Source: Bolinopsis microptera (Eukaryota > Ctenophora > Tentaculata > Lobata > Bolinopsidae). Taken from it: a stretch of DNA of 64,000 bases. Position 1 is the stretch's first letter; every line of letters begins with the position of its first letter. The stretch spans positions 15,138,597-15,202,596 of the forward strand of contig NC_087083.1 of the NCBI RefSeq assembly GCF_026151205.1, read 5' to 3'. The position numbers and the translations under genes were made by a program. Shown here piece by piece: positions 27,823 through 38,053 of this stretch. The notes beneath the pieces are model-generated. The model searched no databases. It was not told where the DNA came from and was given only the letters and a program-made list of their open reading frames with translations.

Positions 27823-29852
27823 TAATCCACGCAGTATGCAGTACGCGTAGACACATGGCTATCATGTCACATGTGAATCCAAACCCTCACCCCAAAGCTA
27901 TCAAAGTTATTTAGCCTTAATTGACGATGTCAATTCATCGCAGCTCGGCTAGTGTGGTTGGTTTTATCCGATTTTTTTAGATTTTTATGGAGGTTGTACC
28001 ATTGTAAAACTTACATTGTGACAGTATAGATGGCGAAATATTTTTGAAAATGGTCCTAACACAGCTTTGATCGTAACAATAACATTGGGTGAATAGATTG
28101 GGTGAACAAACTATGAAGCAGGCAATTATATGTGCTCATCCATCATTCTGCATATGTAAGCTCAGTAGTTTAATTGCTGATTCATACTCAATGGTGAATC
28201 GATAGAATTCATGTGTCGGAGATCTCGTGAGAACACCTTTTAATAATTATAGCCCTCAGGATCGCATTATCCCGATCCGGCCGTAATGTGTATTGAGGTA
28301 TGCACTAATTGTAGTGGTGAACGGTTGCAGCTCAGGCTATGTTTCAGTATAACTATATATCAGAGATCGCAGTATATTTACATTCTACTCGGATTGCAGA
28401 TTGAAATATTTTCCTGTTGGAACCATGACACATGCATGGGAATACCAAAATATTAATTGTAGTTGTACAACTAATATGATCAATAATTAATAACGGCAAC
28501 GCTAATTTGTCCTTATTGGACTTTATTTTTACGGACATAAGTTAATAGTTGCTGCAAATGCCAAATGCTACAACTACAAGTTAAGCCCTATAAGCGTTCA
28601 TTTTAATGTCCGTTCATTTTAATTTTAATATCCGTTCGAATATTGGCGGACGTTTTAAATTGTAATTAAATAGACCATTGAGCGGTCGCGTTTATTTTAA
28701 TGTCCGCTCAAAATTATTCCCGTTCACATTATTTCCTGTTGCAGTACGGGTAAAATAACGTCCGAATAAAGCTATCCGATAAGCTCAGGCAGAGCTTTCG
28801 GACTGCGTAAAACTAAACAACTTGAAACGTTGAAGAACGCCGTTAAGACATCTGTTGTTAACTCACCTAAAACACAAACATACAGATCAATGGCGAAGAA
28901 TTCACAGCCAACTGAGCAAGTCATAAGCTTGGAAACGCTCAAAAGCGTAGTAAAACGTGTTGTCGAGGAAGAGGACCGCAGTCTAGTCGCAACGTCATTG
29001 TATTTGGTCTGTTACAAGGGAGCGAGATATATAGAGAACTTATTGACACAGTTAGCGTGATTTTCCAAAACATTGGACAGAAACCGAAGATTGTTGAAGC
29101 GTGCAAAATTGCCAGAAAATCTAAGGACAATTTAGTTACAGCATCATTAATAAATGAGCAATTACGTTATTCGTTTAAGTTATTGCAAAATATTTGATTC
29201 CAATAAATAAAATCCGCCTTGTGCCGCGTGCGCTAATTTACTAATTCTGTACTCGCCTGCGTACACTGTACTGTACAGTGTACAGCAGGAGCAGGCCTGC
29301 AGGCATCATGCTACATGCGATTTTACAAATAATGTTCGACTTCAATTTAGACTTTCAGTTGTTGTAGTTGTACTGTATACTAATTGTGTCGGTTTATATA
29401 TTTACCAGGCGGCGCTCAAATTGCATGATCAATAACGCTAATTTGTCCTTATTGGACTTTATTTTTACGGACATAAGTTAATAGTTGCAAATGCCAGATG
29501 CTACAAGTTAAGCACTAGCGTTCATTTTAATGTCCGTTTATTTTAATATCCGTTCGAATTTTGGCGGACGTTTTAAATTGTTAGTAAATAGAGCATTGAG
29601 CGGTCACGTTTATTTTAATGTCCTCTCAAAATTATGGCTACGCCCGTTCACATTATTTCCGGTTGCGGTACGGGTAAAATAACGTCCGAATAAAGCTATC
29701 CGATAAACTCAGGCAGAGCTTTCGGACTGTAAAACTGGACAACTTGAAATGTTGAAGAACGCCGTTAAGACATCTGTTGTTGACTCACCTAAAACACAAA
29801 CATACAGTTCAATGGCGAAGAATTCACAGCCAAAGCTGAGCAAGTCATAAGC

Positions 29853-30095
29853 TTGGAAACGCTCAAAAGCGTAGTAAAACGTGTTGTTGAGGAAGAGGAC
29901 CGCAGTCGCAACGTCATTGTATTTGGTCCGTCACAAGGGAGCGAGATATATAGAGAACTTATTGACACAGTTAGCGAGATTTTTCAAAACATTGGACAGA
30001 AACCGAAGATTGTTGAAGCGTGCAGAATTGCCACGAAATCTAAGGACAATTCAGTTACAGCATCATTAATAAGTGAGCTTACGTTATTCGTTTAA
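29853..30095 (+). pseudogene. LINE ORF1-like fragment in the left arm
   Basis: The frame METLKSVVKRVVEEEDRSRN then VIVFGPSQGSEIYRELIDTV and KPKIVEACRI resembles the coiled/RRM-like ORF1 region of CR1/L1-type LINEs (RxNVIVFGL ... KP..VE..RIG). A similar copy begins near 28889, and a third sits inverted at 36815-37057. The frame runs into the TGTC microsatellite, so the fragment is truncated. Assignment is from memory of family patterns. Confidence 0.5.
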
Positions 30096-30096
30096 G

Positions 30097-30469
30097 TCTG
30101 TCTGTCTGTCTGTCTGTCTGTCTGTCTGTCTGTCTGTCTGTCTGTCTGTCTGTCTGTCTGTCTGTCTGTCTGTCTGTCTGTCTGTCTGTCTGTCTGTCTG
30201 TCTGTCTGTCTGTCTGTCTGTCTGTCTGTCTGTCTGTCTGTCTGTCTGTCTGTCTGTCTGTCTGTCTGTCTGTCTGTCTGTCTGTCTGTCTGTCTGTCTG
30301 TCTGTCTGTCTGTCTGTCTGTCTGTCTGTCTGTCTGTCTGTCTGTCTGTCTGTCTGTCTGTCTGTCTGTCTGTCTGTCTGTCTGTCTGTCTGTCTGTCTG
30401 TCTGTCTGTCTGTCTGTCTGTCTGTCTGTCTGTCTGTCTGTCTGTCTGTCTGTCTGTCTGTCTGTCTGT
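30097..30469 (+). repeat. (TGTC)n microsatellite, about 370 bases
   Basis: Uninterrupted tetranucleotide repeat inside the left arm; it produces long spurious frames in all registers. Confidence 0.98.
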
Positions 30470-30960
30470 AATTTCCGAGCGGCTTAATTAAGAAAACGGT
30501 AAGAGTTACGGCAGTCTCTATATTTACTAGGCGTTTTTAATGCTAAATGTGTTTCACTTTCAGTGTTTCATAGGTAATGAAACATATTAACATAATATTA
30601 ATATTATGAATTGGGTCATGCCATGTGAATTTTATATGCTAATCTGCATTCATCACGTTTTTTATACTAATAAATTATTCTTATGTAATGAGTAAGCACG
30701 AGAATTTACCTATGATACTAATACTAATAATAATAATTAGAACCCATAGATTTATTTTTTCTGGCATTACCATTTAGTGACAAAATTCGTGCTACCCAGG
30801 GTCTGCAGGCCACCTGGCCACCCATGATGGGGTGTCATAATCATGTATTTGTAACTTGCGGTGGATCGAACAAGTAGCTTCAAAACTATTTGGACTGTAA
30901 TACTAATATGTAATAGCCCCTAGGCTTATTATTATATTAAACAACATAACTCATGATGCT

Positions 30961-35730: not shown

Positions 35731-36395
35731 GGTGGGCTCAAAAGTTTATAAAACTGGTGTTATTGATGCAGATGGCGTTGTTTTATTTATAGTTATATGA
35801 TTATTGAATATTGAGGCTAATTGTGGGAATTGAGAAGCATAGATATTGGGCACATCAAACGATTTTTTTGCAGGGCATTTGAACTTCGGTAACAGTAATT
35901 TAGAAGTTACCTTGAACAATGTGTTAAAAGTGTCTATTGAGTAAATTAACATCATGAGTTATGTCGTTTAATAAGCTTAAGGGCTATTAAAGTCCAAATT
36001 GTTTCGAAGCTAATTGTTCGATCAACCGCAAGTTACATGATTATACCACCCCGTCATGGGTGGGTAGCACTAGCACCAATTTGACACTAAATGGTAATTT
36101 CAGAAAAAATAAATCCATGAGTTCTAATTATTCTTAATAGTAGGTAAATTCTCGTGCTTACTCATTACATAATAATAATTTATTAGTATAAAAACCGTGA
36201 TGAATGCAGATTAGCATATAAAATTCACATGGCATGACCCAATTCATAATATTAATATTATGTTAATATGTTTCATTACCTGGGGACCTCAGCTTTTGTG
36301 TTTATAAACAGAATGACAAGTTGAACGCCGCCTAGTAAATATATAGACCACCGTAACTCTTACCGTTTTCTTGATTAAGCCGCTTGGAAATTACA

Positions 36396-36814
36396 GACAG
36401 ACAGACAGACAGACAGACAGACAGACAGACAGACAGACAGACAGACAGACAGACAGACAGACAGACAGACAGACAGACAGACAGACAGACAGACAGACAG
36501 ACAGACAGACAGACAGACAGACAGACAGACAGACAGACAGACAGACAGACAGACAGACAGACAGACAGACAGACAGACAGACAGACAGACAGACAGACAG
36601 ACAGACAGACAGACAGACAGACAGACAGACAGACAGACAGACAGACAGACAGACAGACAGACAGACAGACAGACAGACAGACAGACAGACATACAGACAG
36701 ACAGACAGACAGACAGACAGACAGACAGACAGACAGACAGACAGACAGACAGACAGACAGACAGACAGACAGACAGACAGACAGACAGACAGACAGACAG
36801 ACAGACAGACAGAC
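36396..36814 (+). repeat. (GACA)n microsatellite, about 420 bases
   Basis: The inverted counterpart of the left-arm TGTC tract, with a single substitution near 36692. Confidence 0.98.
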
Positions 36815-37057
36815 TTAAACGAATAACGTAAGCTCACTTATTAATGATGCTGTAACTGAATTGTCCTTAGATTTCGTGACAATTCTGCACGCTTCAACAA
36901 TCTTCGGTTTCTGTCCAATGTTTTGAAAAATCTCGCTAACTGTGTCAATAAGTTCTCTATATATCTCGCTCCCTTGTGACGGACCAAATACAATGACGTT
37001 GCGACTGCGGTCCTCTTCCTCAACAACACGTTTTACTACGCTTTTGAGCGTTTCCAA
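36815..37057 (-). pseudogene. LINE ORF1-like fragment in the right arm
   Basis: Same frame as 29853-30095 on the opposite strand, differing by one residue (CRIVTKS instead of CRIATKS). It is part of the inverted arm. Confidence 0.5.
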
Positions 37058-38053
37058 GCTTATGACTTGCTCAGCTTTGGCTGTGAATTCTTCGCCATTG
37101 AACTGTATGTTTGTGTTTTAGGTGAGTTAACAACAGATGTCTTAACGGCGTTCTTCAACGTTTCAAGTTGTTTAGTTTTACGCAGTCCGAAAGCTCTGCC
37201 TGAGCTTATCGGATAGCTTTATTCGGACGTTATTTTACCCGTACTGCAACCGGAAATAATGTGAACGGGAATAATTTTGAGCGGACATTAAAATAAACGC
37301 GACCGCTCAATGGTCTATTTAATTACAATTTAAAACGTCCGCCAATATTCGAACGGATATTAAAATTAAAATGAACGGACATTAAAATGAACGCTTATAG
37401 GGCTTAACTTGTAGTTGTAGCATTTGGCATTTGCAGCAACTATTAACTTATGTCCGTAAAAATAAAGTCCAATAAGGACAAATTAGCGTTGCCGTTATTA
37501 ATTATTGATCATATTAGTTGTACAACTACAATTAATATTTTGGTATTCCCATGCATGTGTCATGGTTCCAACAGGAAAATATTTCAATCTGCAATCCGAG
37601 TAGAATGTAATGTGTAAATATACTGCGATCTCTGATATATAGTTATACTGAAACATAGCCTGAGCTGCAACCGTTCACCACTACAATTAGTGCATACCTC
37701 AATACACATTACGGCCGGATCGGGATAATGCGATCCTGAGGGCTATAATTATTAAAAGGTGTTCTCACGAGATCTCCGACACATGAATTCTATCGATTCA
37801 CCATTGAGTATGAATCAGCAATTAAACTACTGAGCTTACATATGCAGAATGATGGATGAGCACATATAATTGCCTGCTTCATAGTTTGTTCACCCAATCT
37901 ATTCACCCAATGTTATTGTTACGATCAAAGCTGTGTTAGGACCATTTTCAAAAATATTTCGCCATCTATACTGTCACAATGTAAGTTTTACAATGGTACA
38001 ACCTCCATAAAAATCTAAAAAAATCGGATAAAACCAACCACACTAAGCTCGGC

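Follow-up and report, generated by a model that had tools for sequence, protein, structure and literature searches.

Published hAT transposons are 2.5–5 kb long, with terminal inverted repeats (TIRs) of 10–25 bp and 8-bp target duplications (PMC3942097), hAT5 with its 5-bp duplication being an exception (PMC9004415). Hermes has the target preference nTnnnnAn (PMC10368747), and Hydra hATx-6 combines BED and dimerisation domains with 8-bp duplications (PMC8721813). Mutator-like elements (MULEs) have TIRs of 14–500 bp and duplications of 8–11 bp (PMC6446971); the animal MULE Muta1 produced 8- or 9-bp duplications (21 and 39 of 60 yeast events), and TIRs exceed 100 bp in 12 of 14 Aedes MULE families (PMC5225508). 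Galileo, of the P superfamily in Drosophila, has internally repetitive arms of up to 1.2 kb that are >99% identical within some copies (PMC2775673). All of these figures are those given in excerpts of the sources. Here we describe a transposon of the ctenophore Bolinopsis microptera that joins features usually found apart, a putatively hAT-like catalytic block and MULE-like arms with 8- or 9-bp duplications. It lies within a stretch of 64,000 nt (NC_087083.1, positions 15,138,597 to 15,202,596), the whole of which we call the window and in whose numbering plain positions are given. The element is probably an autonomous, recently active cut-and-paste DNA transposon, with a 752-amino acid (a.a.) transposase whose Pfam-orphan family is a distant relative of hAT, and the best reading of its lineage is a recently active, hAT-related one with MULE-like anatomy. 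Among the titles and abstract openings listed in literature searches, we found none naming this protein family together with these ends.

We directly observed matching ends, 8- or 9-bp duplications, empty sites, young copies, intact genes, purifying selection between subfamilies and a copy without the gene (C8:9.07). The window element itself, 27950..38045, is a complete transposon of 10,096 bp with the mirror-image termini TAGTGTGGTTGG...CCAACCACACTA, and its duplication, AGCTCGGC, is exactly 8 bp, the match extending no further. The blast-aligned arm is 1231 nt long at 97.7%, the outer arms (27950–28382 and 37613–38045) are 100% complementary, and 29434–29874 is a 90% repeat of part of the outer arm. 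The gene, rebuilt independently, occupies the minus strand in 11 exons, from an ATG at 35730 to a stop ending at 31258, and encodes 752 a.a.; its ten introns are all GT...AG and 119–332 nt long. Thus, the complete 10.1-kb transposon of the preliminary description, with its ends, arms, 8-bp duplication and an 11-exon chain joining in phase to 752 residues, was found again in every part. The features are as follows.

27942..27949, plus strand: target duplication, left copy, AGCTCGGC; the joined flank with a single copy is present uninterrupted elsewhere
27950..29180, plus strand: left inverted arm, with full complementarity (100%) to the right arm over its outer 433 nt
29729..30469, plus strand: inner inverted block, left; 99% complementary to 36441–37181, with a terminal (TCTG)n microsatellite at about 30097–30469
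31258..31635, minus strand: exon 11, ending at the stop; carries PCHSQSVE and, at 31468–31470, the codon of E683 (proposed catalytic Glu)
31968..32158, minus strand: exon 10
32419..32593, minus strand: exon 9
32760..32996, minus strand: exon 8, with the invariant ARWIT (R465 W466)
33199..33314, minus strand: exon 7
33532..33655, minus strand: exon 6, with C366-x2-H369 and ELP
33775..33884, minus strand: exon 5, with GGDNTSVNSG; D337 codon 33802–33804 (proposed second catalytic Asp)
34098..34256, minus strand: exon 4, with the invariant FD...D; D261 codon 34243–34245 (proposed first catalytic Asp)
34398..34740, minus strand: exon 3
35014..35209, minus strand: exon 2
35501..35730, minus strand: exon 1, from the ATG, 230 nt
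36441..37181, minus strand: inner inverted block, right, with (CAGA)n
36813..38045, minus strand: right inverted arm
38046..38053, plus strand: target duplication, right copy, AGCTCGGC

A peptide-like frame, RSRNVIVFG...SEIYRELIDTVSEIFQNIG, also occurs twice in each arm (28770–29197, 29793–30095 and their mirror copies); it matched Pfam only below the curated cut-offs and is reminiscent of the ORF1-like proteins of long interspersed nuclear elements. The left flank (27800–27941) is part of a dispersed repeat with ATTGACGATGTCAAT.

The genome searched comprised 264.65 Mb in 232 contigs. The exact 22-nt end occurred at 25 places (12 forward, 13 reverse), and 24 of these formed 12 facing pairs, the 25th being partnered by a slightly diverged left end; a backward control gave no match, and the finding is far beyond chance. 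Eleven elements, the window copy included, were fetched end to end, and all 11 had both ends and an exact duplication, of 8 bp in four and 9 bp in seven, whereas a twelfth place (C5:19.76) showed a left end only within the 7 kb fetched. The elements measure 10–14 kb, with one copy of 5.7 kb, and their arms 567–2,898 nt in the first blast alignment. Gene exons were present in ten of the 11 copies, and the gene was intact, defined as all 11 exons, every splice dinucleotide and a reading frame that stays open for 752 or 753 codons, in six (window, C9:16.5, C2:14.6, C4:5.7, C9:2.2 and C3:1.93). In the remaining copies, the C13:6.1 gene is in frame with a differing start of exon 2 (GG where AG is expected), indels break the C1:10.49 frame, C3:19.07 lacks exons 1–4, C9:1.41 lacks exons 1–5, and the 5.7-kb C8:9.07 has the ends without any exon. 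The outer 400 nt differed at 0–2 positions between the two arms of one copy, and at 0–6 positions between the left arms of the 11 copies. The near-identity of the kilobase-long arms within each copy might reflect either youth or conversion between arms.

In two copies (C9:16513775–16527796 and C3:19072867–19084880), the gene is oriented opposite to that of the window, and only the arms match the window on the plus strand, with the left and right arms in order. This fits arm-to-arm recombination that inverts the middle, and both copies look as if their middles had been turned in this way.

Flanks joined with a single duplication were built for all 11 insertions, and five were searched in the genome; three had clear empty counterparts. 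The window insertion has its empty site at C4:8137686 (100% over 201/201), with five more full-length matches at 98–99%; that of C2:14.6 is at C3:15783652 (100%), with two more at 99%; and those of C3:19.07 are at C10:10658118 and C2:13331631, both 100% over 198. For C9:16.5, the listed matches start at query positions 284–292 and cover mostly the right flank, so that an empty site is not proven, and the joined flank of C13:6.1, which was 9 bases short, gave an uninformative miss because its own site was also uncovered among the 52 matches listed. The empty counterparts are paralogous copies of the repeats into which the elements jumped. The target of C3:19.07 is itself a dispersed repeat, found in L060 and about 30 listed places, some copies of which (L060) hold a remnant of the transposase-like gene. 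The recent mobility that had been proposed for the element is borne out by the similarity of the left arms and by these empty sites.

A gene copy 90% identical to that of the window in exon 11 (L051) has the left end TAGGGTGGATGG, recognisably homologous to TAGTGTGGTTGG, and defines a second subfamily, B, beside the first, A. This end had 43 matches, many as facing pairs, with 40 of 77 candidates scored; a 12-nt match to it in the window at 17610 (minus strand) was rejected as an element end. The L051 gene is intact, with 756 a.a. and the same 11 exons. Its identity to the window gene is 82–97% in exons and 41–79% in introns, and the non-synonymous (dN) and synonymous (dS) divergences are 0.064 and 0.243 (dN/dS 0.26), indicating that the gene was kept under selection between the subfamilies. 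Both termini begin with TAGTG in all 11 A copies and with TAGGG in 13 of the 15 B pairs; the hAT end consensus is YARNG. Nine B pairs are spaced only ~2–6 kb apart and showed no gene match among the 60 of 248 gene candidates scored, so they are probably non-autonomous, and further copies with ends but no exon, besides C8:9.07, are probable.

A further 19 pairs were read at 60 nt per end, 15 of the B type and four diverged relatives of the first type, while single or partial ends (C12:9.75, C5:19.76, C5:13.25, C8:8.57, C1:19.47 and the second left piece of C9:15.88) were omitted from the count. The resulting 30 end pairs (11 + 19) comprised 11 with an 8-bp duplication, 14 with a 9-bp duplication, four with none (C16, C7:17.69, C9:2.92 and C13:13.4, the last matching with a 1-bp offset only) and one made unreadable by poly-G. 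The preliminary description had suggested looking for other copies with 8-bp duplications and empty sites: the copies and empty sites exist, but the strict 8-bp rule does not hold, and arms lacking a matching duplication occur in small number. The pattern nTnnnnAn fits six of the 11 8-bp duplications (background 0.097, binomial 2.5e-4, for a pattern chosen after the sites had been seen), and the binomial value is 7.5e-3 without the two nTGACGAT sites. In addition, TTGACGAT or GTGACGAT is the duplication of three further insertions, with both subfamilies represented.

We then considered whether the gene belongs with the ends. Among the 60 candidates scored, all ten gene clusters whose exon 11 is at least 95% identical sit between arms bearing these ends; of three clusters at 90%, C11:13.18 and C7:17.73 are enclosed by arms flanked by an 8-bp duplication, and C12:9.75 has the right end alone among the scored matches. 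Moreover, the gene is tied to the ends by the diverged subfamily B, whose homologous ends enclose the same intact 11-exon gene. The link between gene and ends is thus strong for the window transposon and subfamily B. For the wider protein family it is not demonstrated, because relatives lie outside recognised arms: none of these ends occurred in the 7.0 kb fetched for L050, at 59% identity to the window protein (59–71% by exon), or in the 5.0 kb fetched for L049, at ~29–30%. The earlier claim that gene and ends form one unit accordingly stands for the close copies and not for the family at large. The L049-type query had 111 matches in the genome, several in near-identical sets; the L049, L052, L054 and L057 genes, on several chromosomes, are 91–99% identical in places with intron-like gaps, and L055 and L056 stand at 68–69%. 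No recognised TAGxGTGG ends accompany the L049-type copies in the stretches examined, and they may be recent duplicates or belong to a second mobile family. A broken remnant of this type lies in the window at 41612–42335 (minus strand; match at G000:C12:15180396-15180680).

Three sequences went into the family alignment, two of which had been assembled from matches to exons. Invariant in all three are FDxxxD (D261), GxDxT (D337), C-x2-H-x2-ELP, ARWIT and PCHxQSVE (E683). Pieces of the relatives matched nothing in Pfam over the curated cut-offs, no chain was matched in a PDB sequence search with the protein and the profile, and a search of IMG/VR for relatives gave 33 pattern matches, of which none was confirmed. 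Four hAT stretches were fetched for comparison (L102, L103, L104 and L106), which rests on L102 and L106 because L103 has no usable block around the second Asp (D2) and L104 is a C-terminal fragment. L102 is a hAT transposase of the same genome (Dimer_Tnp_hAT, E 3.7e-10; DUF4371, 1.9e-6, below the curated cut-off) with four weak PDB matches (E 0.05–0.09), two named Hermes and two just 'transposase', and its order of motifs, D2, C-x2-H, RW and S-x-E-R, is that of the window family.

The family profile scored 46.2 (probability 74) against L102, compared with at most 22.6 for 30 shuffles and 16.2 for the reversed sequence; L102 and L106 scored 63.6 against each other. Against a profile of both hATs, the family scored 41.6 (50 column shuffles at most 22.0). 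An orphan family with the motif DTTSxNTG (L058, 612–3105, plus strand; L059, 2769–528, minus strand) matched the window family over 302 columns (probability 97.7, E 1.3e-12), and scored 34.7 against the two-hAT profile by itself (shuffles at most 21.4) and 51.4 together with the window family (probability 92, E 6.4e-7; 50 shuffles at most 20.5), the E-values being those of single comparisons; with L106 alone, the DTTSxNTG profile gave no signal (13.4). In a permissive alignment, PCHSQSVE (E683) lies opposite the hAT motif IPVTVASAER (S-x-E-R), whereas a fully global alignment failed. MULE was the only other superfamily used as a sequence control. The family profile scored 18.5 and 13.0 against two MULE sequences and 13.7 against a MULE profile, no better than shuffles; a second comparison with the MULE profile gave 11.4. 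Counted by hand, the second Asp and the Cys of C-x2-H are 29 residues apart in the window family and L102, 28 in L106 and 21 in both MULEs. Taken together, the profile signal appears hAT-specific in the controls run and the similarity confined to one block, and there is moderate evidence for a hAT-related catalytic core in the family around D2 and C-x2-H. The protein family, previously called functionally unassigned, indeed has no Pfam match, but a distant relationship to hAT is detectable.

Several results weigh against a hAT-related, recently active transposon. With E values up to 10 allowed, neither the 752-a.a. protein nor its two aligned relatives had a Pfam match, and hence the family has no hAT dimerisation domain, PF05699. 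The N-terminus is without a Cys/His set resembling a BED finger; such a zinc finger is common at hAT N-termini, although not universal. The family profile scored 17.3 with the single hAT L106, where the best shuffle reached 18.0, albeit in the same register as in the L102 alignment, and likewise 17.3, no signal, with L104, which lacks the D2 block and scored 20.0 against L102. Only one of the 14 9-bp duplications fits the equivalent dyad pattern. The window and C13 genes, the only comparison within the young set and one in which exon 2 of C13 was forced, gave dN 0.015 and dS 0.013, values that give no hint of constraint across so short a span. Finally, hATs as excerpted have TIRs of 10–25 bp against the arms of 567–2,898 nt here, and duplications of 8 bp (5 bp in hAT5) against 9 bp in 14 of 25 readable sites.

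We regard as unlikely a separate DDE (Asp-Asp-Glu) superfamily, sister to hAT, with its orphan protein, TAGxGTGG ends, kilobase arms and 8- or 9-bp duplications. The missing Pfam match, the relatives' pieces all below the curated cut-offs, the 9-bp duplications at 14 of 25 sites and the hAT similarity restricted to one block, with none to L106 alone, would all suit it; the hAT-specific profile signal, with MULE as the only other type, and the fit of TAGNG ends to YARNG speak against it. A divergent MULE, whose transposase would explain the long arms and the 8- or 9-bp duplications, is improbable. Animal MULEs show the same mix in the source excerpts (8- or 9-bp duplications in Muta1, long TIRs in Aedes; PMC5225508, PMC6446971), and this genome has many MULE domains (88 matches), but no MULE domain appeared in the Pfam scans, the profile scores are at shuffle level, and the distance between the second Asp and the Cys resembles that in the hATs rather than that in the MULEs. 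The window holds a 166-a.a. open frame with a MULE domain match at 49577–50077 (minus strand; G000:C12:15188344-15188586, E 3.6e-7), which served as a MULE control. Very improbable, finally, is the capture of a host or passenger gene by arms that depend on another transposase for their movement: the relatives at 59% and 29% have no recognised ends in the fetched stretches and an 11-exon gene is unusual in transposons, but the ten of ten clusters inside arms, the presence of this gene in subfamily B, whose ends have diverged yet are homologous, the hAT-like order of D/D/E, C-x2-H and RW, and the purifying selection between subfamilies all argue against capture.

Under the preferred reading of an autonomous, hAT-related transposon, the spliced protein would be a DDE enzyme using D261, D337 and E683, with C-x2-H and RW in hAT-like order. 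It would bind the outermost TAG(T/G)GTGG(T/A)TGG ends, cut the element out and link its 3' ends to the target at positions staggered by 8 or 9 bp; the same protein could mobilise the gene-less copies in trans. An orphan family without a matching Pfam model would thereby gain a concrete, testable function, with defined ends, duplications, empty sites and intact copies. If the protein does move these ends, related 'uncharacterised proteins' of other animals, which we presume to exist, could be relabelled as transposases or domesticated transposases. More tentatively, it is possible that the animal orphan 'D-G/N-T-x-x-N-T/S-G' proteins are the transposase of a superfamily of their own, related to hAT yet separate from it. 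Its marks would be TAG(T/G)GTGG ends, kilobase arms kept near-identical within each copy, a many-exon gene and a cut staggered by 8 or 9 bp, and in this genome it would have moved recently or still be moving.

Among the known systems, the DTTSxNTG family resembles the window family in its profile match and in having no Pfam match over the cut-off, and differs in that the 3.5 and 3.3 kb examined contain no TAGxGTGG end. Hydra hATx-6, as excerpted, differs from the window element by its BED and dimerisation domains. The long, internally repetitive inverted arms, near-identical within a copy, recall those excerpted for Galileo, whose duplications are, however, the 7-bp GTAGTAC; PF21787 was unmatched by the window protein and two aligned relatives, and assignment to the P superfamily was rejected on this ground. 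A domain search of the genome did not find PF21787, although such a miss does not show absence. With MULEs and Muta1, the element shares 8- or 9-bp duplications, long inverted arms and shortened copies (PMC5225508, PMC6446971), and it has the 8–11 bp duplication plus long TIRs that define MULE anatomy in PMC6446971; the protein, however, has no MULE similarity and leaves PF10551 unmatched, and assignment to MULE was rejected for want of a MULE domain and of profile scores above shuffle level. From hATs, the window family differs by the missing Dimer_Tnp_hAT and BED matches and by its 10–14 kb (5.7 kb in one copy) and 11 exons, compared with 2.5–5 kb in the hAT excerpts. We call the element hAT-related rather than filing it as hAT, because it has no match to PF05699 or BED and shows 8-bp duplications at only part of its sites. 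Its likeness to hATs of the Hermes, Ac and DUF4371 types lies in the D2 to C-x2-H block, which aligns by profile and in register, in RW and S-x-E-R-like motifs in order by eye, in TAGTG/TAGGG ends that fit YARNG, and in 8-bp duplications at 11 of 25 readable sites, six of them nTnnnnAn.

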